The notes under the pieces are model-generated. The model ran no database searches and had not been told where the DNA came from. It was given only the letters and a program-made list of their open reading frames with translations. A DNA stretch of 41,182 nucleotides from Bacteroidota bacterium (GTDB lineage: Bacteria; Bacteroidota; Ignavibacteria; UBA10030; SZUA-254): contig JAGVIE010000052.1 in the NCBI GenBank assembly GCA_020056225.1, positions 1 to 41,182 on the forward strand. The letters are read 5' to 3'. Shown here in pieces: positions 7,938 through 21,846 of the stretch. How positions within the stretch are numbered: the first letter of the stretch is position 1; each line of letters begins with the position of its first letter. Made by a program: the position numbers and the translations under genes.

Positions 7938-10832
7938 TTATTTTGCCAGAAGCATCTTCATTACCTGGGTTACTTTACCAGCACTTAACCGATAAAAATA
8001 AACTCCACTGGGAAGATTGCACGCATCGAAAAGCACTGATTTATATCCGGCAGTCTCTTCGCCATCAATTAATCTTGCGACTTCACGACCAAGAATGTCG
8101 TAGACAGTGAGTTTTATGTATGTATCCTCGCGCAAGGAATATTTAATCGTTGTAGTTGGATTGAAGGGATTGGGATAATTTAATCCAAGCTTGGTTTCTA
8201 TTGGTAAATTTTTTACTGTAGTCAATTTATTCACTTGATTGGAATTTACTGTTACCTTATTTGATGTGACCAGAGGACCTGAGTTTGATGTAACATAATA
8301 GTAAAACGTCGTATAAGCTGTTTCACCGGGACGTTTTACCCATACAGTCACGTCAACAAAATATTGGTCCATAGTGCCTGATATAAGAAGAGATGGTGTT
8401 GCGCCGCAATCCCCGGCACCGTACGCACAAGCATATCGATATACATTGTAAGAACTAAAGCTGCCATTAGTTGTCCATACGAGCATCGGGTGACAATCAC
8501 TCGTTTTAAAATTACAAGGGTCTCCCTCAGCGTTCGAAGATGTCCACGTGAGAGTAATGCTACCTATCGTTGTGAATGTCCAGCTTGTCGACGCTGGTCC
8601 ATCACCAACCACATTATTTGCCAATACTTTCCAATAATATGTTTTACCATTTGCAAGTCCCGACATTGTAAGCAACGTAGGAATAACAAAAGGATTATTC
8701 ACAGCCGGACTACCAAAATTTGGATCATCATCGACGACAACATGATAGCCGGCAGCTTCGGGAACGGAATTCCAGCTTAATGTAACTGTTAGTGGTTGGT
8801 TTGCTGCTCCACTCGATGGATAAACCAGAGTGGGGGCTTGAGATAAAGTATTAATTTTATAGATACCATTATCAGTTGCAGCGCAGAGGGTAGTGGTATT
8901 TCCCGGTTCAGATCGCAGCTCATATATCGGTGTTGGTATTGTGCCTGTTTGATCAACCCAGCTTGTTCCACCATTGCCGGAATAATATATCTTGCTGCCA
9001 TCGTTTGCAACAACTGCAACGTAATTTGCTGAGTTTGGAAAACCTGGACTTTGTACAACACGCTTCAAGGCATCGGTTCGAACTTGTGTCCAGTTCACTC
9101 CAGCATTGACGGTCTTCCATAAACCTGACGCTCCAGCGGAATAGACGGTGTTCGGAACAGCGGAGTTCACAACGAGATCTTTTACGGTTGTTGTGTTAAG
9201 TACTTGTGTGCCTACGCACGGTGTTACTCCATCACATTTCAAAACACCTTCGTTATCCTTAGCAAAATAGGTAGGTCCCGATGCTGTTGCCCATACCACA
9301 TCATTAATAGAGTTTGAACTGTTACCTACAACATGCCCATCTCGACTTGTTGCACTGTATATATGATACATGTTGTTCGTGCCGTCTTTACCCCAAACGT
9401 ATGTATAATCGCTATTCAATGGATCAATCGCGCTCCCTTTGAAGATATTACCGTATCCTTGTGTTGATGATACGTACCATGCACTATAGGTTGCTCCATT
9501 GTCGCTGCTCCTATACAGCGCTGCCTGAGGATTGCTGGGATTGATTAGACCGGCAGCAAACAGGGAGCTATTATTCCGGATGATATGTTCACCTCGGAAG
9601 TTTGAAAGTTCGGTTATACTCCACTGCGTACCGTTATAATAACCGAGACTATCGTAACTGGCTGAGACAGTCCAATAGTTGTTTCCAGAAATTGCAATGG
9701 ATGATAGCGGCATCCTTCCAAGTCCGTTATCAACTTTTGTCCAGTCAGTTCCTCCGTTAGTAGTCTTCCACACCGTATTATTAGTTGTTGCATACATCAG
9801 GTTTTGATTGCTGCCGGCAATGGAGAATGTAAGTATATTTTTATCGTAGAGATCGGGCGAAACATTTGACCAGTCGTTGCCGGAGTTCGTGGAGCGATGA
9901 ATACCTTTATCCGAGGCAACGAAAACAAAATTGTTATCTGTACGTACACGAATGGCACTAACTGTAGTTGCGGTGCTCGTAGTTTGGTAGCTACTCTTTT
10001 GAGTCCAGCCAGCACCATAGTCTGAGCGATACAGTTTACCGGTTGATGTGCCAGCGTAAACAAATGGTGTTGTCTGATCTGCAATAGCAATTGCGCGGAC
10101 ATTGAAGTTACCCATGTTCTTTTGTGTCCAGATATCACCGTTGTTAGTTGACTGCCATACCCCCCGTACACTTGCGGTTGTTGTGTTTGGATCACCGCTC
10201 TCGTTTGAGCCGCCTGATGGATCCGAGCCACATGCCCACACATGGTTGCTGCGCGTTCCAGTAACTGGGTATGGTGCAACACCATAAAGATCTGTTGGAC
10301 CGGGCGGAATTGTTGGGTTGCTCCATGATGCACCACCTGTTCCACTTCTCATTATTGAGCTTGCACCATTGACATATTTTCGTCCTAAGTACATTTGGTC
10401 TGTGATCAACGTAGATACGGAAAGACGAAGAGGAAGCATGTTGGATTGCGTCAAGACAGGTTCCCAGATACCAGTCGAGCCACCATTGGCATTTCGCTGA
10501 AGTGATCCTGAAATCCCTACTACCACAACATTTGGAACATCTGGCTTGCATGTAACAACGAGCGGTGATGCAATTTCAACTCCAGTTGCTACCCATGCTG
10601 AGCCGCCATTTATTGATTTGAACAGTACAGATTTATCACACGCATACAATGTCTGTCCATCATTACTGATTGCAATATCATTTACATTGCGTGCTTTGGG
10701 TGGAGCATTTTGATATGTCCATGTCTGGGCTATTGAAAGTGTTGATAAAACAATGAATATAGTAATACATATCCCGAAGGGACGGATTCCAGCAGCAATA
10801 ACCCTGAGCGTTATGTTTTTTATTTGAAACAT
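7938..10832 (-). CDS. Secreted Asp-box/YCF48-like repeat protein with Fn3 domain and T9SS sorting tail
   Basis: A cell-surface or released protein of about 964 residues. A signal peptide ending near LSIAQTW precedes roughly 600 residues of repeated blocks such as FKSINGGSAW, WQSTNNGDIWTQ, HRSTNSGNDW and WKTTNGGTDWTKV, the hallmark of Asp-box/BNR or YCF48-type beta-propellers. A fibronectin type III-like domain follows (APTLVYPSSGA to the SWTFTT block). The C-terminus is a type A type IX secretion signal: NYPNPFNPTTTIKYSL, YDILGREV, LPSGVYFYRL. I start it at the ATG at 10832 because AGAGGA (10842-10847) lies 9 bases upstream; a TTG at 10856 would add eight residues inside that RBS region. Family character is clear; the ligand or substrate is unknown. 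Confidence 0.88.
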   Translation of the reverse strand: MFQIKNITLRVIAAGIRPFGICITIFIVLSTLSIAQTWTYQNAPPKARNVNDIAISNDGQTLYACDKSVLFKSINGGSAWVATGVEIASPLVVTCKPDVPNVVVVGISGSLQRNANGGSTGIWEPVLTQSNMLPLRLSVSTLITDQMYLGRKYVNGASSIMRSGTGGASWSNPTIPPGPTDLYGVAPYPVTGTRSNHVWACGSDPSGGSNESGDPNTTTASVRGVWQSTNNGDIWTQKNMGNFNVRAIAIADQTTPFVYAGTSTGKLYRSDYGAGWTQKSSYQTTSTATTVSAIRVRTDNNFVFVASDKGIHRSTNSGNDWSNVSPDLYDKNILTFSIAGSNQNLMYATTNNTVWKTTNGGTDWTKVDNGLGRMPLSSIAISGNNYWTVSASYDSLGYYNGTQWSITELSNFRGEHIIRNNSSLFAAGLINPSNPQAALYRSSDNGATYSAWYVSSTQGYGNIFKGSAIDPLNSDYTYVWGKDGTNNMYHIYSATSRDGHVVGNSSNSINDVVWATASGPTYFAKDNEGVLKCDGVTPCVGTQVLNTTTVKDLVVNSAVPNTVYSAGASGLWKTVNAGVNWTQVRTDALKRVVQSPGFPNSANYVAVVANDGSKIYYSGNGGTSWVDQTGTIPTPIYELRSEPGNTTTLCAATDNGIYKINTLSQAPTLVYPSSGAANQPLTVTLSWNSVPEAAGYHVVVDDDPNFGSPAVNNPFVIPTLLTMSGLANGKTYYWKVLANNVVGDGPASTSWTFTTIGSITLTWTSSNAEGDPCNFKTSDCHPMLVWTTNGSFSSYNVYRYACAYGAGDCGATPSLLISGTMDQYFVDVTVWVKRPGETAYTTFYYYVTSNSGPLVTSNKVTVNSNQVNKLTTVKNLPIETKLGLNYPNPFNPTTTIKYSLREDTYIKLTVYDILGREVARLIDGEETAGYKSVLFDACNLPSGVYFYRLSAGKVTQVMKMLLAK

Positions 10833-15685: not shown

Positions 15686-16564
15686 ATGAAACTATTAGTA
15701 AAATTTATTTTATTCCCGGCATTATCACTTCAGCTTATCGCTCAGGAGAATGAGCGGCAGCCGATGGAGTTTATTTTTCTCCCGAACGGAATCAACTTCG
15801 CTCCGTTGAAAGCACACATCAGTGAGCCGAGGATCGGCGTCTTCAAGTTTCTCGATGACTCAAAAATGAAAGTCGATATCGGAAATACGATTGATGTTTT
15901 TGGATTACAGATTCCGGATGACAGGGTACGATTTTCAGCAGGTATAGATTTTTTTGCTTATGCATTCACTACCGGCGCGCAAGGTCTTCGGCTTCAGATC
16001 GATGCGATCGATGGTTTCTTTGGCGGGAATTTATCTGTTTCAAAATACTTTGATGAGAAAACTATTCAAGCGCGGCTCCGGATACTTCACCACAGCGCGC
16101 ACCTTGTCGATGGGCATTACAATTTAAACACAAATTCATGGCTCGATAACCGCGAGCCGATACCCTTCACAAGAGATTTCGGCGAGTTGGTTCTCGCTTA
16201 CAGAATCGATCGACCGAGCAGAGCCATGCGCTATTATGCAGGATTATCATACGCAACGTTAGTGCGCCCCACTATCGTAAAGCGATTTGCCTATCTTGCA
16301 GGCATCGAGGTTTATTTTTACGACATCATCGGACGAATAGCCGGGCAGAAAACAAATCTATTCTGCGCTTACAACGTCAGCTTAACGGGAATGCCGGGAT
16401 ATTCGGCATCGCATCAGGTTCAGGTTGGAATAAAATTTGGTGAGTGGTACAAAAAGGGTCCGACAATTTATCTCGCTTACTATTCGGGCAGACATATGTT
16501 TGCAGAGTATTTCGACCAACGGCTCAAGACGATTGGGTTAGGTTTTACGGTAGATTTTTTCTAA
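15686..16564 (+). CDS. Exported beta-barrel-like protein resembling DUF1207
   Basis: A 292-residue protein with a signal peptide (LVKFILFPALSLQLIAQ), then FIFLPNGINFAPLKAHISEPRIGVF, which resembles the start of DUF1207 proteins (a LP..... PL.ADPRE-type phrase). Barrel-like strands continue to a final GRHMFAEYFDQRLKTIGLGF and a terminal VDFF. The Phe terminus and strand pattern point to the outer membrane. It diverges from the 257-residue barrel-like gene, with about 125 bases between them. The DUF assignment is from memory of the family and moderately sure; no biochemical role is known. Confidence 0.75.
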   Translation: MKLLVKFILFPALSLQLIAQENERQPMEFIFLPNGINFAPLKAHISEPRIGVFKFLDDSKMKVDIGNTIDVFGLQIPDDRVRFSAGIDFFAYAFTTGAQGLRLQIDAIDGFFGGNLSVSKYFDEKTIQARLRILHHSAHLVDGHYNLNTNSWLDNREPIPFTRDFGELVLAYRIDRPSRAMRYYAGLSYATLVRPTIVKRFAYLAGIEVYFYDIIGRIAGQKTNLFCAYNVSLTGMPGYSASHQVQVGIKFGEWYKKGPTIYLAYYSGRHMFAEYFDQRLKTIGLGFTVDFF

Positions 16565-16616
16565 AGATTGGTTCACCCTCACCCCTTAATCGGGGTTGAC
16601 CAAAAAATGAAAAAGG

Positions 16617-16677
16617 CCAGTGTCATTCCCGAATTCTTCAATCGGGAATCCAGAATTTTGCAAAATCTGGACACTGG
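16617..16677. repeat. Compound palindrome (outer stem enclosing two hairpins)
   Basis: CCAGTGTC (16617-16624) pairs with GACACTGG (16670-16677). Inside are ATTCCCGA (16625-16632) with TCGGGAAT (16642-16649), and CCAGAATTTTG with CAAAATCTGG (16650-16669, one bulge). The fold is a three-way junction. It lies between the convergent DUF1207-like and HD-domain genes and looks like a dispersed intergenic repeat. Confidence 0.75.
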
Positions 16678-16750
16678 ACTCCCAATAAAAACGTTCGGGA
16701 GTGACAGCATGGGTATTCTTATTTCTGATTAACCGGCTCTACCTTCGCCT

Positions 16751-17299
16751 TTACAAACCAAGTTCACCTGAGACGGACTTCATTGCATCAATGACAAACT
16801 GTATATGCTCATCCATCGGCACGCCAAGCTCTTCGCACCCCTTGATAATGTCTTCACGATTCACGTTGGCGGCAAAACTTTTATCCTTGAGTTTCTTTTT
16901 CACTGATGAGACCTGCAGGTCGGCGATTTTATTCGGTCTTACTAAAGAGCAGGCAGTGATGAAACCACACAACTCATCGCAGGCGTAAAGAACTTTTGCC
17001 ATCTGAGTATCCCGCGGAACACCTGAGTAAGTTGCATGACCGAGTATAGCATGGCGAACATCTTCCGGATATCCTTTTTCTTTCAGTATCTCTGATCCTT
17101 TCATCGGGTGATCTGGAGCGGTTGGGAACATTTCGTAATCAAAGTCGTGCAGCAAGCCAACTACAGACCACTTTTCTTCATTCTCATTGTATTTTTTAGC
17201 GTATGCACGCATTGCCGCCTCGACCGCATACATATGTTTTAACAAAGCTTCGTTTTTTGTGTACTCTTTTAAAAGTGTGAGTGCGTCCTGTCGGTTCAT
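16751..17299 (-). CDS. HD-domain protein (HDIG type), putative metal-dependent phosphohydrolase
   Basis: A 182-residue single-domain HD protein. Likely metal ligands are His22 (LLKHMYAVE), His51-Asp52 (GLLHDFDYE), His64 (APDHPMKG), His88 (ILGHATYSG) and the Asp of ACDELCGF. Proteins of this type usually hydrolyse phosphate esters of nucleotides, but the substrate cannot be read from the sequence. It is complete, with a C-terminal helical part (VNREDIIKGCEELGVP). ATG start without a clear RBS. It is convergent with the gene at 15686 and divergent from the + strand accessory island that starts about 280 bases away. Confidence 0.88.
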   Translation of the reverse strand: MNRQDALTLLKEYTKNEALLKHMYAVEAAMRAYAKKYNENEEKWSVVGLLHDFDYEMFPTAPDHPMKGSEILKEKGYPEDVRHAILGHATYSGVPRDTQMAKVLYACDELCGFITACSLVRPNKIADLQVSSVKKKLKDKSFAANVNREDIIKGCEELGVPMDEHIQFVIDAMKSVSGELGL

Positions 17300-17379
17300 A
17301 GTAATTTATTGTAATGATTAAAATGAATGTAATGATTGAAAAGATTAAAAAATTTCATGAGAATTGCAATTCGGGATGC

Positions 17380-17408
17380 TTGACATAGTCACTAATTTTC
17401 ACTATACT
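17380..17408 (+). promoter_or_regulatory. Near-consensus sigma-70 promoter ahead of the accessory island
   Basis: TTGACA (17380-17385), a 17-base spacer, then TATACT (17403-17408). Transcription would start near 17415 and run into the membrane-protein gene at 17577 with a leader of about 160 bases. The leader holds a 14-codon mini-ORF (17420-17464, no RBS) and a stem (ATCCCGAT/ATCGGGAT, 17500-17517) nested in GCTCGCA/TGCGAGC (17494-17500 with 17538-17544). Match to consensus is direct; activity is inferred. Confidence 0.65.
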
Positions 17409-17493
17409 ATGCGAAATTAATGTGGGCGATAATGAAAGAATTATTACTCCACTTGATGCAGTGATGTATCCACCCAAATCGGGAGAGCCGTTC

Positions 17494-17544
17494 GCTCGCA
17501 TCCCGATGTATCGGGATACTTCCCGCATCACGTTATGTGCGAGC
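17494..17544. repeat. Nested palindrome in the leader of the accessory island
   Basis: GCTCGCA (17494-17500) pairs with TGCGAGC (17538-17544), enclosing an 8-bp hairpin ATCCCGAT-GT-ATCGGGAT (17500-17517). The right arm is preceded by CACGTTATG (17529-17537), which recalls the right-hand end of integron attC sites, but the matching left-hand AAC end is not found at the expected place. Confidence 0.55.
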
Positions 17545-17576
17545 AGCCTGCATCGTTAAAATGAAGAGATGAAAGT

Positions 17577-18089
17577 ATGAGTCGAGTCTACACTTATCCA
17601 TCAATACTCGTAGTGCTATCTTTGGTTGTCTGGCTGTTCTACAATCCTCTTTTAGCTTCATGGGTTTTCCTTGTGATCGCATACGGCGTCTTTGTGTTGC
17701 TTTTACTCTATGACCGTGGTGCAAAGCCGCACGTAGATACAACTCGCTGGACAAAAGACGAGAGTCGAGTCATTCAGAAGTACCATATTTTCATCCGGGG
17801 ACCACTCACTTCTCAGATTGCCAGTGCCAACCTCAACATCTTTCGCATCTCGGTTCTTATATGGGTTCCTTTGCTTCTCTGGAAAGGTCTGCTGATTCAA
17901 TCTGCCCTTGCCGCGTTGTTCTATTTCCTTCCTTTCTCACTGACAAAGAAGTTGGAACCGTTTAACCCAGCAGTAAAGGATAGATTTCAATATCGGACTG
18001 ATGCAATGAAACAACTTGCCGGCGATAAGCCGAACGAGCTCGATACTCTGAGGGAGGTTCTGGAGAAGATGAGAGCGGGTAACCATTGA
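17577..18089 (+). CDS. Small integral membrane protein, function unknown
   Basis: A 170-residue protein with two adjacent hydrophobic helices at the N-terminus (YPSILVVLSLVVWLFY, LASWVFLVIAYGVFVLLLLY). A soluble stretch follows (RWTKDESRVIQKYHIFIRG), then one or two further helices (ISVLIWVPLLLWKGLLIQSA, LAALFYFLPFSLT) and a charged C-terminus. No known domain is recognised. It is the first gene after the strong promoter at 17380 and precedes the AbiV-family gene by 61 bases, so a link to phage defence is possible but not shown. The start ATG follows an AAGAGATGAAAGT stretch that gives only a weak RBS. Confidence 0.75.
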   Translation: MSRVYTYPSILVVLSLVVWLFYNPLLASWVFLVIAYGVFVLLLLYDRGAKPHVDTTRWTKDESRVIQKYHIFIRGPLTSQIASANLNIFRISVLIWVPLLLWKGLLIQSALAALFYFLPFSLTKKLEPFNPAVKDRFQYRTDAMKQLAGDKPNELDTLREVLEKMRAGNH

Positions 18090-18150
18090 TAGGATGCCGG
18101 CACATACACTACTTAGGTGCAGCGCAACCCGATCGCGAATACTCACCCAT

Positions 18151-18816
18151 ATGAACACATCAAAATTTCGCAGAATGCAGGAACTGGCAATCCAGAATGC
18201 CTTACGACTCCATTTCGACTCAATCGCCCTATACAATCAGCGTTCTTTACCATCTGCTCTTACACTATCGATTCTTGCACTGGAGGAAATCGGAAAGTCT
18301 AGCCAAATACACAGGTTCATCGGCGACATCGAGATGTGGCCCAAAGAACAAGTCGAAGAATTCGTTGACAAAGATGCTTTTCTTGACTCTCTCTATAAGC
18401 ATCCGATCAAACAAAAAGCCTTCGTACAGGATTTGCTATTCGTCTTCCCCAAAAACTTCTTGCGTAAACTAGAGAACAAAAAACTGGACACCCTGAAACA
18501 GAACTCAATGTACGTCGGATTCCAATGGAAGAAAGGGAAACCCGATTTCAGCGGTCGATTGAGGTCGCCTTTGTCGGTTCGAGATAGCAATCCGCGATCA
18601 TTCATCACAGTTGTCAATGACTATCTGATAGTTTTAACGCACTCGATAATAAAAGGAGTCCAAGCTTGGGACACACCCAACAAGAAAAACATTTTCAACG
18701 ACCAACTTTTGGAGCGTCTCAAGTCTTCTTGGAAAAACAGAGGAAGGTTGAGTCGGACAAGGCTGAAGTGGCTCGATGATTTCGCGATGCAAAATAAATC
18801 TGCATTGTTTGTTTAG
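18151..18816 (+). CDS. AbiV-family abortive-infection protein (HEPN fold)
   Basis: A 221-residue protein whose N-terminal helical region (ELAIQNALRLHFDSIALYNQRSLPSALTLSILALEEIGKSSQIH, residues 11-54, shown here in part) matches AbiV. In lactococci AbiV causes abortive infection by shutting down translation after phage entry. The LALEEIGK phrase (42-49) is the most typical element. The C-terminal half (MWPKEQVEEF ... RLKWLDDFAM) is not characteristic. The ATG at 18151 is preferred; an upstream in-frame start at 18094 would add 19 poorly conserved residues. It is flanked by other accessory genes, including a second HEPN-type protein. Role in this organism is inferred from the family. Confidence 0.7.
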   Translation: MNTSKFRRMQELAIQNALRLHFDSIALYNQRSLPSALTLSILALEEIGKSSQIHRFIGDIEMWPKEQVEEFVDKDAFLDSLYKHPIKQKAFVQDLLFVFPKNFLRKLENKKLDTLKQNSMYVGFQWKKGKPDFSGRLRSPLSVRDSNPRSFITVVNDYLIVLTHSIIKGVQAWDTPNKKNIFNDQLLERLKSSWKNRGRLSRTRLKWLDDFAMQNKSALFV

Positions 18817-18881
18817 GTACGGTTACGCTGCGCCTAACACGTTCCATGAACAACTATCGAAACAATTTGAAAGGTGAGTAC

Positions 18882-19649
18882 ATGAGCAATAAAAAATTAG
18901 GTTCACATCCTCTCATCCACTTATTAATGAACGACATTAAGCCCCTGACTGAGAAGGCTGCAGAGCTACTTACTGCAGTGGTTAAAAAGAAAGGCCGCTT
19001 CCAAAAGATTAGAAAACCGAGTCGCTTGAATTGGCCAGATTCATACTATCATAGTGTATTCTATCATGGTATGAATCTGATAAACGCAATTGATCGTCTC
19101 AATGAGATCAAAGTCTTTCTATCTTCTTTTCCAACAAAAAAACGATACGAAAAGCAGGGTGTTTCGCAAGACAAATGGATTCGTTATCACTATGCTAATT
19201 TCGTTGTTACAGTCTTCAGTCTATATGACATCTCATTGATACTGACTAGTTTCGTGTTCCGTCTTGGGATTCCAGAAAGCAAGTGTAAAACTGACGTCAT
19301 TGTAAAGAATGCTTGGATCTCCGGTACCAAGGTCGAAACTACACTTGTCGAACTTGACAAGATAGTCAGGCCCTTTCGTGAACCGAGACACCTTCATGTT
19401 CACCGAGGCCAAATCCCTGAATTAGAACAATTGGATGAGTTGGGGTTGATCAGTTTTGCTCAACTACGCTCAAAACCGATAGTCCCGGCAAGGACTTTGA
19501 GAATCGCTTATTCCCTCGCCATTCGCGACATTCTTAATAATATGGATCCAGAGATAGAAAAACTGACTTATGCAATTTGGAATCTTTTTGATGCACTATT
19601 TCCAACCTACGAACAACATAGCAAAGCAGCACACAAATTCGGGCTGTGA
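18882..19649 (+). CDS. HEPN-domain protein of the Cthe_2314 type
   Basis: A 255-residue, largely helical protein with a probable HEPN RNase signature, Rx4H, at Arg169-His174 within REPRHLHVHRG. The surrounding layout (an SYYHSVFYHGMNLINAIDRL helix, then FVVTVFSLYDISLILTSFVFRLG) resembles Cthe_2314-like HEPN proteins. HEPN proteins commonly act as toxins or RNases in defence and toxin-antitoxin systems. The ATG at 18882 is chosen because AAGGTGAG (18871-18878) is just upstream; an earlier ATG at 18846 lacks an RBS. A GCCTAAC motif (18832-18838) lies between this gene and the AbiV-family gene. Family assignment is moderate; no partner antitoxin was recognised. Confidence 0.65.
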   Translation: MSNKKLGSHPLIHLLMNDIKPLTEKAAELLTAVVKKKGRFQKIRKPSRLNWPDSYYHSVFYHGMNLINAIDRLNEIKVFLSSFPTKKRYEKQGVSQDKWIRYHYANFVVTVFSLYDISLILTSFVFRLGIPESKCKTDVIVKNAWISGTKVETTLVELDKIVRPFREPRHLHVHRGQIPELEQLDELGLISFAQLRSKPIVPARTLRIAYSLAIRDILNNMDPEIEKLTYAIWNLFDALFPTYEQHSKAAHKFGL

Positions 19650-19666
19650 CAAAGTAAGTTTGGCGG

Positions 19667-19706
19667 CTTCTGCTAACAACGTTGCTTTACGCCGGACGTT
19701 TATGCA
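19667..19706. other. attC-like fragment after the HEPN gene
   Basis: TGCTAAC (19671-19677) and, 20 bases on, CGTTTATGC (19697-19705) recall the left (RYYYAAC) and right (GTTRRRY) ends of integron recombination sites. The segment sits 18 bases after the HEPN gene's stop, where a cassette attC would be. The right end has an extra T and the arms do not pair well, so this is at best a decayed or divergent site. A small hairpin CACAAG/CTTGTG follows at 19751-19769. Confidence 0.25.
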
Positions 19707-19785
19707 CCATCTAAATTAAAATTGTCATATTAACATGAGTCTTATTAAATCACAAGGTATCTTCTTGTGCAACCCTCTCCCGACA

Positions 19786-19826
19786 AGTTGTAGAAATCAG
19801 AAAGTTTGATTATGTTTTATATGAAA
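19786..19826 (+). repeat. 41-bp direct repeat, copy 1
   Basis: Identical over 41 bases to 20293-20333 (both begin AGTTGTAGAAATCAG and end TTTTATATGAAA). The two copies flank the isoprenylcysteine-methyltransferase-like gene. The second copy forms the leader of the toxin-antitoxin pair. Confidence 0.95.
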
Positions 19827-19893
19827 CGAGAATTATATCCGGATAAAATCAAAAACAGTTAACCGTGTCCTCATTTTCATACTGCCCACGTTC

Positions 19894-20274
19894 GTGCTCT
19901 TACCTTGGATCATCCTGCGTTTGCTGTCAAAGTTTCCGCATGACCTCATGTCGTACATGGGCATTGCTCTCATCCTCCCCTCGTTTGTACTTTTGCTTAT
20001 TGCGTTTCATCAACTTGGAAATTCTTTCGCGGTGAACGCGAAGGCTAAAGAACTCGTGACAAACGGGTTATATGCAAAGATCCGTCACCCGATGTATGTC
20101 TTCCAAATACTGCTGTTTCTGGGATTTGCAATGATTACCCGTGACGTCATCGCCTATGGGTTCTTTATTTTAGCGCTCGTTTTTGTGGCTTGGCGGGTCC
20201 GCATTGAGAATCGAATTCTTGAAGAAAAATTCGGCGACGCATACAGGGCGTACCGCGAACAGGTATGGTTCTGA
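19894..20274 (+). CDS. Isoprenylcysteine carboxyl methyltransferase (ICMT)-like membrane protein, N-terminus uncertain
   Basis: A 126-residue protein of the ICMT/PEMT-type membrane methyltransferase family, whose members use S-adenosylmethionine. Key features are the NGLYAKIRHPMY motif with RHPxY, two following hydrophobic helices (FQILLFLGFAMI, YGFFILALVFVAW) and the IENRILEEKFGDAYRAY C-terminal motif. The start shown is a GTG without an RBS. The frame is open upstream to 19825 but has no ATG. An ATG at 19821, inside the 41-bp repeat, opens another frame that ends after 13 codons, so the 5' end may be frameshifted or lost. The gene lies between two identical 41-bp repeats, which suggests it was inserted there. 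Substrate is unknown. Confidence 0.6.
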   Translation: MLLPWIILRLLSKFPHDLMSYMGIALILPSFVLLLIAFHQLGNSFAVNAKAKELVTNGLYAKIRHPMYVFQILLFLGFAMITRDVIAYGFFILALVFVAWRVRIENRILEEKFGDAYRAYREQVWF

Positions 20275-20292
20275 TGTCATATGCACGGCGAG

Positions 20293-20333
20293 AGTTGTAG
20301 AAATCAGAAAGTTTGATTATGTTTTATATGAAA
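20293..20333 (+). repeat. 41-bp direct repeat, copy 2 (leader of the toxin-antitoxin pair)
   Basis: Identical to 19786-19826. After the repeat the sequence continues GGAGATAAAGGAGAAATATT to the antitoxin ATG, giving two GGAG-type ribosome-binding motifs. Copy 1 continues differently (CGAGAATT). The repeat probably carries the promoter/operator of the toxin-antitoxin pair, which would place a second such promoter ahead of the ICMT-like gene. Confidence 0.9.
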
Positions 20334-20353
20334 GGAGATAAAGGAGAAATATT

Positions 20354-20578
20354 ATGACGGTTCAGCAAATAGAAAAACAGGTGTTAAAATTAGATGCTAA
20401 TTCTCGTGCAAAGCTTGCAAGCAAGCTTCTATCGAGTCTAGACGAACTTTCCGATGTTGAGAATGAAAAATTATGGGCGGAAGAAGCTATGCGTCGACAC
20501 AATGAGCTAATAGGCAGTAAAGCGAAATCAAGGTCAGCCGAAGTTGTATTCAAAAATGCGCGGACTAGATTGAAATGA
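20354..20578 (+). CDS. Type II antitoxin, addiction-module component (TIGR02574-like)
   Basis: A 74-residue protein whose sequence (TVQQIEKQVLKLDANSRAKL, LLSSLDE, EKLWAEEAMRRHNEL) matches the small antitoxins annotated as addiction-module component TIGR02574, usually paired with RelE/ParE toxins. The acidic middle and basic, flexible C-terminus suit toxin wrapping, and the protein normally represses its own promoter. Two GGAG motifs lie upstream, the nearer about 9 bases from the ATG. The stop overlaps the toxin ATG as ATGA, which couples their translation. Confidence 0.85.
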   Translation: MTVQQIEKQVLKLDANSRAKLASKLLSSLDELSDVENEKLWAEEAMRRHNELIGSKAKSRSAEVVFKNARTRLK

Positions 20579-20871
20579 TTAAAGCTGTTTCATTTCACGA
20601 ATTGGCAGAGTTAGAGTTGTATGAAGCAGCGAAGTATTATGGATCCAAAGTGTCAGGTCTCGGATTAGCTTTTCTCTCCGAAGTTAAGCGGGCAACAAAA
20701 GCAATTCAACAAAATCCCGAATCATCCCCACGAATATTCAAAGCTGTTCATCGAAAATTATTACGGCGTTTTCCGTACAGCATAATGTACTCAATCATAG
20801 ATAACTCAATTTATATATTGGCAATAGCAAATCATAAGCGGCGTCCGTTCTATTGGCAAAATCGGAAATAA
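20575..20871 (+). CDS. Type II toxin of the RelE/ParE superfamily
   Basis: A 98-residue protein with the RelE/ParE fold signature: an N-terminal strand and helix (VSFHELAELELYEAAKYY), a helix with LGLAFLSEVKRA, and C-terminal strands with LLRRFPYSIMYSI and the ILAIANHKRRPFYW ending. RelE-like members cleave mRNA on the ribosome; ParE-like members poison gyrase. The HKRRPFYW tail is typical of the ParE/RelE group annotated beside TIGR02574 antitoxins, but the exact target cannot be decided by eye. It overlaps the antitoxin gene by 4 bases and ends the accessory island. Confidence 0.87.
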   Translation: MIKAVSFHELAELELYEAAKYYGSKVSGLGLAFLSEVKRATKAIQQNPESSPRIFKAVHRKLLRRFPYSIMYSIIDNSIYILAIANHKRRPFYWQNRK

Positions 20872-20926
20872 TTTTTATCTACCTAATCAGTAATCCAAAT
20901 CTGATTAAGCAAACCAACCTTACCTC

Positions 20927-21667
20927 TCAACTCAAATCCCCCAACACAGGTCTCACTACAATCTCATCGACCACAACATCATCAGGCATCTGGTAAACGG
21001 AGAGGATTGCCTCGGCAACACTTTTTGCTTTCATCATGCGGTAGGAATACTTCACACGCACTTTGGGATTCCAGATACCGGTCGAGGTTGCACCGGGGAA
21101 GACATTCACTACTTTAATATTGTACTGCTTTAATTCTTCGCGCAATACTTTTCCAAATCCCTCCATGCCTGCTTTTGAGGCAGTGTATGCAGTTGAATTT
21201 ACGAATGTCTTCTTCGCAGCCATTGAAATGATATTGAATATCCATCCCTCCTTCCGCTTCACCATCGAAGGAAGTGCTTCCTTTGTACAGGCAACCTGTC
21301 CGATCAGGTTGGTCGATATAATTTTCTCAAAATCTTTAAGCGGCGTATCGATGAACGGCTTGAACGACGTTATGCCTGCATTATTCACAAGAACATCAAC
21401 ATCTCCAACTTTCTTCTGGATTTGACGGTGTACGGTTTGGATGGATTTAGTCTGAGTAATATCAAGCGGAAACGAATATGCTCTGCCGCCTAACTTTATA
21501 ATTTCTTTTACGGCAGAGGCGAGGTCTTTTTTATTCCGCGCGGATAGACATACTTCGCAACCGAGGAATGCAAATTGTTTAGCAATCTCACGACCGATAC
21601 CGCGGGATGCACCCGTTACCCACACAACGGGACGATGGATTATGACCTCTTGCTTTTTATTCTTCAT
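20927..21667 (-). CDS. Short-chain dehydrogenase/reductase (SDR)
   Basis: A classical SDR of 246 residues using NAD(P)H. Visible are the nucleotide-binding TGASRGIG motif, the NNAG motif (LVNNAGITSF), the catalytic Ser in NIISMAAKK, and the Tyr-Lys pair in STAYTASKAGMEGF. ARNKKDL after the second strand hints at NADP. The ATG at 21667 gives the usual start, a few residues before VVWVTGASRG. An upstream in-frame start at 21754 would add 29 residues that fall inside the MITE-like element. No RBS is seen. It is convergent with the toxin gene. The substrate is unknown; 3-ketoacyl reductase-like and sugar or alcohol dehydrogenase roles are all possible. Confidence 0.9.
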   Translation of the reverse strand: MKNKKQEVIIHRPVVWVTGASRGIGREIAKQFAFLGCEVCLSARNKKDLASAVKEIIKLGGRAYSFPLDITQTKSIQTVHRQIQKKVGDVDVLVNNAGITSFKPFIDTPLKDFEKIISTNLIGQVACTKEALPSMVKRKEGWIFNIISMAAKKTFVNSTAYTASKAGMEGFGKVLREELKQYNIKVVNVFPGATSTGIWNPKVRVKYSYRMMKAKSVAEAILSVYQMPDDVVVDEIVVRPVLGDLS

Positions 21668-21698
21668 ATTCAGAAACTGTCGAATTATTATTGAATGT

Positions 21699-21846
21699 AT
21701 GGGGCTGTCCATAAAATAAAAATTCTTGTCTGCCTGAGCTTGTCGAAGGCTCATTTCCTTTCACTTTCACATTTCGACAAGCGTTCGACTGAGCTCACGC
21801 CGAAGTCTCAATGTGACACCCTTTTGGATTTATTGGACAGCCCCAT
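21699..21846. mobile_element. MITE-like element with 13-bp terminal inverted repeats
   Basis: ATGGGGCTGTCCA (21699-21711) and its exact reverse complement TGGACAGCCCCAT (21834-21846) bound 148 bases with no gene. GGGGCTGTCC ends are typical of IS5/IS1182-type transposons, so a non-autonomous derivative is plausible. Inside, GCTTGTCGAA (21738-21747) pairs with TTCGACAAGC (21773-21782). It lies immediately upstream of the SDR gene (start 21667) and downstream of folE. Confidence 0.65.

Follow-up and report, generated by a model that had tools for sequence, protein, structure and literature searches.

The window, that is, the whole stretch of DNA that was analysed, is contig C23 (41,182 nt) of the 3.5 Mb genome of Bacteroidota bacterium (GCA_020056225.1), whose completeness is given as 100%. 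It contains an island of six short genes on the + strand, between a gene for an HD-domain protein and a gene for a short-chain dehydrogenase (SDR). The main find is a type of platform, the integron with an integrase that lacks I2, the additional domain of integron integrases (IntI), and the island is read here as a remnant of one such platform. The nearest named relatives of the HD protein belong to Ignavibacteria genomes from groundwater (86% to JACQYX010000257). In the following list of predicted features, G001 is a genome of the same family and of another genus, L172 is its HD locus, C52 is one of two contigs of the window's genome with an intact gene for the I2-less integrase, and C27 and C60 are further contigs of that genome.

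16751..17299, - strand: HD-domain gene, left border (PF01966, E 3.1e-10; orthologue in 35/40 relatives searched)
17377..17478, + strand: conserved promoter and leader (88% over 102 nt with the HD locus of G001)
17380..17408, + strand: predicted promoter TTGACA-17-TATACT (11/12 consensus positions; same hexamers and spacing in L172)
17437..17481, + strand: stub, 3' end of an I2-less integrase gene, encoding RIITPLDAVMYPPKS (tblastn with the C-terminus of the C52 integrase)
17480..17540, + strand: hairpin element ending in the R'-like site GTTATGTGC (17532-17540); start of cassette 1
17577..18089, + strand: gene for a 170-aa hydrophobic protein
18091..18108, + strand: possible end of cassette 1, weak (complementary to 17532-17549 at 13/18; 15/200 shuffles as good)
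18112..18129, + strand: start of the AbiV cassette (complementary to 18821-18838 at 15/18; 0/200 shuffles as good)
18151..18816, + strand: AbiV-family gene, frame open from 18094 (PF18728, E 1.9e-15; TIGR04498, E 1.5e-16)
18821..18838, + strand: end of the AbiV cassette, with R''-like GCCTAAC
18836..18887, + strand: leader of the HEPN gene (92% over 52 nt, E 3e-18, to the start of C27; 93% over 41 nt, E 2.5e-13, to the start of C60)
18882..19649, + strand: HEPN_Cthe2314 gene, alternative start 18846 (PF18730, E 4.1e-8)
19668..19691, + strand: CTAACAACGTT junction, possible collapsed attC, weak
19786..19831, + strand: 46-nt direct repeat, copy 1 (98% to copy 2)
19894..20274, + strand: PEMT/ICMT-type methyltransferase gene, frame open from at least 19840 (PF04191, E 3.4e-13)
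20293..20338, + strand: 46-nt direct repeat, copy 2, just upstream of the toxin-antitoxin pair (similar stretch before the pair in L172)
20354..20578, + strand: antitoxin gene, Unstab_antitox (E 2.7e-6; 89% identical in G001)
20575..20871, + strand: ParE-type toxin gene (E 9.6e-6; 86% identical in G001)
20927..21664, - strand: SDR gene, right border (PF00106, E 1.8e-57)

An earlier note, made from the letters of the window alone, had described short + strand genes behind one strong promoter at 17380, and this description agrees with what was found: the membrane protein, AbiV, HEPN, ICMT-like and toxin-antitoxin genes are all present, and the promoter is conserved in G001. It is the best of 12 promoter-like sites in 16500-21800, where shuffled sequences yield 10.3 +/- 3.2 such sites, so that a match of this class is by itself within chance; the site at 17380 carries weight because of its conservation. 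A 65-nt part of the promoter and leader is 83% identical in the genome G009, there beyond an O-methyltransferase (OMT) gene and with no integrase behind it. The candidate assignment of the promoter to the integrase gene itself was rejected, as the regions upstream of the intact integrase genes of C52 and G001:C100 gave no match.

The stub matches the C-terminus of the C52 integrase at 60% over 15 aa (tblastn, E 0.001; DNA 82% over 39 nt). The leader of G001 encodes RIINPLDAAMHQPKTK followed by a stop, which matches the same C-terminus at 94% over 16 aa (tblastn, E 1.3e-7), and its DNA matches the 3' end of the intact C52 gene and the DNA behind it at 86% over 94 nt (108 bits). The bottom strand of 17440-17575 folds with z -3.4, and elements related to the hairpin at 17480-17540 occur elsewhere in the genome, several of them at contig ends. 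The contig ends of C27 and C60, with which the HEPN gene shares its leader, also carry hairpin elements, and C60 has, as judged by eye, a decayed integrase 3' end. Single-strand folds of 18085-18165, 18805-18885 and 19650-19760 were no better than shuffles (z 0.9, -1.0 and 1.3), and a loose arm-pairing scan was dropped as attC evidence in the window because its matches spread everywhere, including outside the island.

The AbiV family is predicted from sequence by a profile match over the cut-off, and the HEPN protein contains FREPRHLHVH, which fits the R-x4-6-H motif of HEPN nucleases. The adjoining antitoxin and ParE genes are over their Pfam cut-offs, as in a ParDE-type pair, with TIGR02574 under its own. 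The two 46-nt repeats flank the ICMT gene, and copy 2 resembles the leader of the toxin-antitoxin pair, as if it had been copied upstream of ICMT. The 170-aa protein had no match in Pfam, PADLOC or NCBIfam, and nothing was found in support of the suggestion that it could be a new defence component. The label of defence island, also given to these genes before, suits AbiV and HEPN, which are defence-type; it describes content only, the other array genes here and in G001 being mixed.

The HD locus in related genomes

The HD locus was compared in 11 genomes of the window's family. The HD gene directly adjoins the OMT gene in seven of them (L170, L173, L175, L176, L177, L179 and L180); no OMT gene was found on the stretch fetched from G003, G007 and G013, and the window's genome has no good OMT match. 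In G001 (L172), the interval from HD to OMT contains the same promoter and leader, the gene of a YCF48-like protein that carries a secretion tail, an attC, a stretch of gene sequence broken by N, a CreD gene, another attC, the 3'-terminal 23 codons of the ICMT gene, which are all that is left of it there, the toxin-antitoxin pair and a scrap of the end of the SDR gene. Its attC sites have 93.9 bits (a training site of the covariance model described below) and 37.3 bits (held out, E 3.1e-5). Between these two genera the promoter-proximal genes differ, while the distal ICMT fragment and toxin-antitoxin pair are kept; replacement close to the promoter with retention of the distal genes would be as in an integron.

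The loci L171 and L174 (G007 and G013) have 138 nt at 79% in common in the HD flank, each with a 25-28 nt match to the integrase 3' end (E 1e-4, weak). At 8405-8545 and in the flank, L174 also contains a 72-bit attC pointing away from HD and a possible integrase stub. The intact integron of G013 lies on another contig (L226), separate from its HD locus, and parts of one of its cassettes are found twice in the array (L226:7439-7601 and 8190-8420), the second, shorter copy appearing as if by internal deletion of the cassette.

Integrases without I2 and the arrays behind them

Against TIGR02249, the integrases of C52 and C59 and those related to them align in two pieces that leave out the I2 region, and 4/4 proteins reach 230-243 bits against a cut-off of 265; with this score and with no I2 additional domain around patch III they fall outside IntI. 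They are likewise outside XerC (176-195, TIGR02224 cut-off 335) and XerD (179-191, TIGR02225 cut-off 330), and 3/4 proteins exceed the cut-off of NF040815 ("site-specific tyrosine recombinase/integron integrase"). In an alignment of 39 rows, from which L183, L192 and L205 are missing, the I2 insertion is present in 10 IntI rows and in none of 27 I2-less rows (some of them partial) or two Xer rows. The residues R146, K174, H238, R241, H264 and Y273, known as catalytic positions of the family, are invariant in 12/12 aligned I2-less proteins. Both sequence and fold place the integron integrase 2a3v nearest among solved structures; only the nearest fold was taken from the structure model, because its mean pLDDT is 79.5 and its pTM 0.59. 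The phage-integrase matches of C51 and C27 in the window's genome are XerD- and Xer-type.

Matches to the I2-less integrase were found in 25 of 60 relatives (E<=1e-40) and in 16 of 395 genomes of the phylum (E<=1e-70), with weaker or broken matches (e.g., G001:C168, G030:C54 and G012:C193) lying outside the analysed set. IntI over the cut-off is present in 22 of 98 genomes of the order and was not found in the window's genome. In a tree of 53 proteins, IntI form one clade (100/100), and a second (97/98) unites 22 I2-less rows as a core; five more I2-less rows stand beside those clades, unresolved, and Xer are apart (100/100). No branch in any of 200 bootstrap trees has all I2-less rows, and no others, on one side. 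As an evolutionary reading, the tree would fit a gain of I2 inside this group; its rooting is uncertain, since the branches that lead to IntI and to Xer are long (about 2 changes per column).

The features expected of an integron platform, namely a co-directional array (18 of 27 loci), complementary cassette ends and an attI-like site (20 of 33 stretches), were found in the relatives. The covariance model used for attC, R1, was made from 19 sites, with seven donor loci that hold an I2-less integrase, and 13 of its 17 pairs have changes on both sides; over 41 loci it gives 98 matches at E<=1. A locus was counted as testable if 650 nt or more followed the integrase, by which 6/30 were left out, and the remaining 24 became 27 with L204, L205 and L208. 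The 18 loci with a downstream attC at E<0.01 (17/24, then L208) include 17 with a site outside the training set. At this threshold the integrase strand carries 71 sites and the opposite strand none; this count omits matches at E>=0.01 and the truncated attC L226:10839. The I2-less relative of L270, at 44% identity on a complete single-contig chromosome (G209), has no attC within 19 kb downstream and marks the limit of the integrase group with arrays. In 494 kb of controls, matches at E<0.01 were confined to two loci: L175, where an I2-less integrase is itself present, and the G013 HD locus L174. Another 232 kb around 30 XerD-type and 10 IntI genes gave no R1 match at E<=1, so that R1 is blind to the attCs of IntI arrays. 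For the attI-like site, a matrix of 40 cassette starts reaches at least 10 behind the integrase stop (e.g., GTTATGTGCCATTGCC and GTTAACTGCAATTGCC), and 17 of the 20 scores were reached by 0/50 shuffles; 1/30 XerD loci was usable as a control for this matrix.

In 45 cassettes, the start matches its own end at 7.02 of 10 positions and the ends of others at 3.73 (0/10000 permutations; attC pairs more than 2500 nt apart or with no readable GTT/AAC core were not included). In the 35 cassettes with good ends, position 11 matches in 11% and its neighbours in 83-94%. This corresponds in 26/35 to a start with A where the end needs G, which gives an outer-stem mispair of A.C on the top strand and T.G on the bottom strand; it was seen in L225, L226, L227, L231, L272 and others, and it was not found in ten IntI cassettes of the same order. 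The classical extrahelical base lies in the first ten L-helix positions. There, a single-base bulge is present in 16/17 sites of IntI arrays from the same order versus 6/72 I2-less sites (4/53 held out); because R1 has no bulge at that place, a bulge-blind scan was made, which gave 15/17 versus 4/46. The sites are long covarying hairpins and not the short dif-like sites of Xer dif (pdif) modules.

The window's genome has small genes in line with attC sites at the end of C15 and at the starts of C61 and C24, and the integrase genes of C52 and C59 are at contig starts; behind the C52 stop, GTTATGTGCAATGC is followed by the beginning of another gene. Because many contigs end at hairpin elements, the cassette array of this genome is probably one region broken in assembly. 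Its cargo includes a TIR protein (L159:1638-2135), an HSDR_N protein (L159:2573-3346) and a MauJ-domain protein. Hairpin modules without an open reading frame (ORF) and with a shared core were also observed (C59:6101-6267, C60:8-106, C61:2382-2499, C15:21071-21185, C15:24366-24486, C24:1384-1471 and C4:144356-144454), often at contig ends; they begin after ACGTT and end in GCGTTA, and either cassettes that lack an ORF or a palindromic element targeting attC and attI may account for them.

Origin of the island and of the platform

Here it is proposed that the island is probably a cassette array in decay, on what remains of an unusual kind of chromosomal integron, whose cassettes would have been captured by an integrase without I2. 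The idea of a former integron array, or of a CALIN-like one (a cluster of attC sites without an integrase), was already in the earlier note, which proposed a search for attC sites and for an integrase elsewhere in the genome and a comparison with close relatives, and which named as refuting a lack of attC together with a gene order shared by all relatives. The former array is supported by the comparison with relatives and not by attC in the window: the gene order is not conserved, G001 having other genes and 7/11 genomes none between HD and OMT, and the integrase does exist elsewhere in the genome, intact on C52 and C59, next to cassette arrays on other contigs. The idea thus survives because the gene order differs among relatives, though attC is absent from the window; the CALIN part does not, because no attC is detectable there. 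Neither is the locus a complete integron, with about 15 codons of the integrase 3' end and no attC between its genes.

By the mechanism that these sequences suggest, the I2-less integrase would capture circular cassettes: attC, folded as a single strand, would recombine with a site that directly follows the stop codon of the integrase gene. New cassettes would enter promoter-proximally, and older ones would come to lie farther and farther from the promoter. Strand choice may depend on two features, the unequal unpaired spacers of the hairpin and the outer-stem mispair (A.C top, T.G bottom), which would stand in place of the extrahelical L-helix bases and of I2. At the window locus the integrase gene would have been lost except for its last codons, and because of this loss the array would be frozen behind its promoter, unless C52 or C59 acts in trans.

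Several observations weigh against this proposal. With filters off, the covariance model found no attC within 17300-20900; over the 41 kb window it gave six matches at E<=10, all outside that region, the best with 11.2 bits. Of the putative cassette ends, only those of AbiV are significant, as 72/200 shuffles equal those of HEPN, 189/200 those of ICMT and 200/200 those of the toxin-antitoxin pair. The collapsed attC motif was rejected as unspecific (34 in 401 kb of array loci versus 26 in 524 kb of controls), and the integrase stub of the window, whose E of 0.001 comes from a search of small size, has a length of no more than 15 aa and gains strength only via G001. In the relatives, no attC at E<0.01 was found in 9/27 loci (L204, L205, L223, L233, L236, L270, L274, L275 and L276, of which L274 has two matches at E 0.03-0.04), and the attI-like site is absent in 13/33 stretches behind the integrase. 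A looser count, of any left-only inner-stem bulge, gives 25/70 I2-less versus 16/17 IntI sites, so that the bulge difference concerns the first position and not bulges generally.

The missing attC would be accounted for if the HD-OMT interval were an ordinary accessory hotspot, gaining and losing genes by unrelated events and holding AbiV, HEPN and toxin-antitoxin genes as any defence island does; the defence-type families also agree with this, and the toxin-antitoxin pair is not demonstrably a cassette. Such a hotspot is nevertheless considered unlikely, since it leaves aside the integrase stub with the att region of G001 at the same site, the attCs that G001 has there, the complementary ends of the AbiV gene and the leader that the HEPN gene has in common with array contig ends. 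A similarly low probability is given to ordinary IntI, in other strains or since lost, as the maker of the arrays, with the I2-less recombinase a neighbour that has another job. IntI is found in the order, G019 and G238 hold it beside arrays of the I2-less type, which also counts against the proposal made here, and I2 is held necessary for capture in passages of PMC7790495 and PMC9668308. However, IntI over the cut-off is absent from 12 of the 14 genomes that have these arrays, the sites start right behind the I2-less gene and all run in its direction, the attC model is blank at E<=1 in 10 IntI loci, and the L-helix bulges differ.

The remaining alternatives concern the recombinase, and both are thought quite improbable. 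It could act on double strands, as Xer does on dif modules, and move genes by recombining direct copies of a site, the hairpins being incidental; the alignment of the I2-less protein with Xer and XerA runs from end to end, and Xer have no I2 either. Against this, the inner-stem pairs covary (13/17) and each cassette start matches its own end and not those of others, as expected if the folded site of each circle is used. The I2-less integrases could also descend from IntIs by secondary loss of I2 and be dying out together with their arrays, for which seven-odd degraded copies, with stops or partial frames, would speak. In the tree, however, IntI are one clade inside an I2-less assemblage with Xer outside, subject to the uncertain rooting, the I2-less rows never fall on one side of a branch, and the catalytic residues are invariant in 12 proteins. 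Beyond the island itself, it is tentatively suggested, as a reading that may well not hold, that Ignavibacteria and kin have a self-contained class of integrons whose integrase never had I2 and whose folded attC has its strand set by an asymmetric loop and the mispair in its outer stem (A.C top, T.G bottom); this class would be a living pre-I2 stage and the source of IntI.

Known systems and significance

The IntI of Treponema has I2, whereas the integrase here has none and the attC L helix is mostly without a single-base bulge. The Treponema-type chromosomal integron has, in the description of PMC3607928 available here, an integrase directed toward attI, co-directional cassettes and attC between genes, all of which it shares with the I2-less platforms; the co-directional arrangement of integrase and array is thus already known from it. 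Like the CALIN of PMC9024848, as that paper outlines them, the window array has no integrase of its own; unlike them, it has no detectable attC and retains an integrase stub and a promoter. With IntI (TIGR02249, 2a3v) the I2-less integrase shares the SAM-like and catalytic domains and the conserved catalytic residues, and it differs in the missing I2 insertion and in a score under the family cut-off. The CTXphi hairpin integrated by XerCD, in the account that PMC4792948 gives in part, also combines a recombinase without I2 with a folded site without extrahelical bases; the system here has, in addition, its own integrase, an attI-like site and gene cassettes.

In the portions of PMC7790495 considered, I2 is described as necessary for capture and present in no other protein, with the lack of intermediates named as a limit; this necessity stands against the proposal made above. 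The relevant passage of PMC4792948 presents I2 and attC as a chicken-and-egg paradox that functional intermediates could solve. Sections of PMC9668308 and PMC2426708 use the additional domain to define IntI, and in the latter matches had to contain it, while PMC9024848, in the part concerned, mentions complete integrons in Ignavibacteriae with the type of integrase unstated. In the open-access literature, preprints not included, no paper on integrons with I2-less integrases was recognised, and absence from print is not claimed.

The island of the window is in itself modest, a frozen remnant that would indicate how an array can persist, behind a promoter that is retained, after its integrase is gone. 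The definition of IntI in integron searches may demand the I2 region, and if it does, platforms of this kind would be filed as CALIN or missed. The I2-less integrases that head attC arrays are candidate intermediates, which would be directly assayable.

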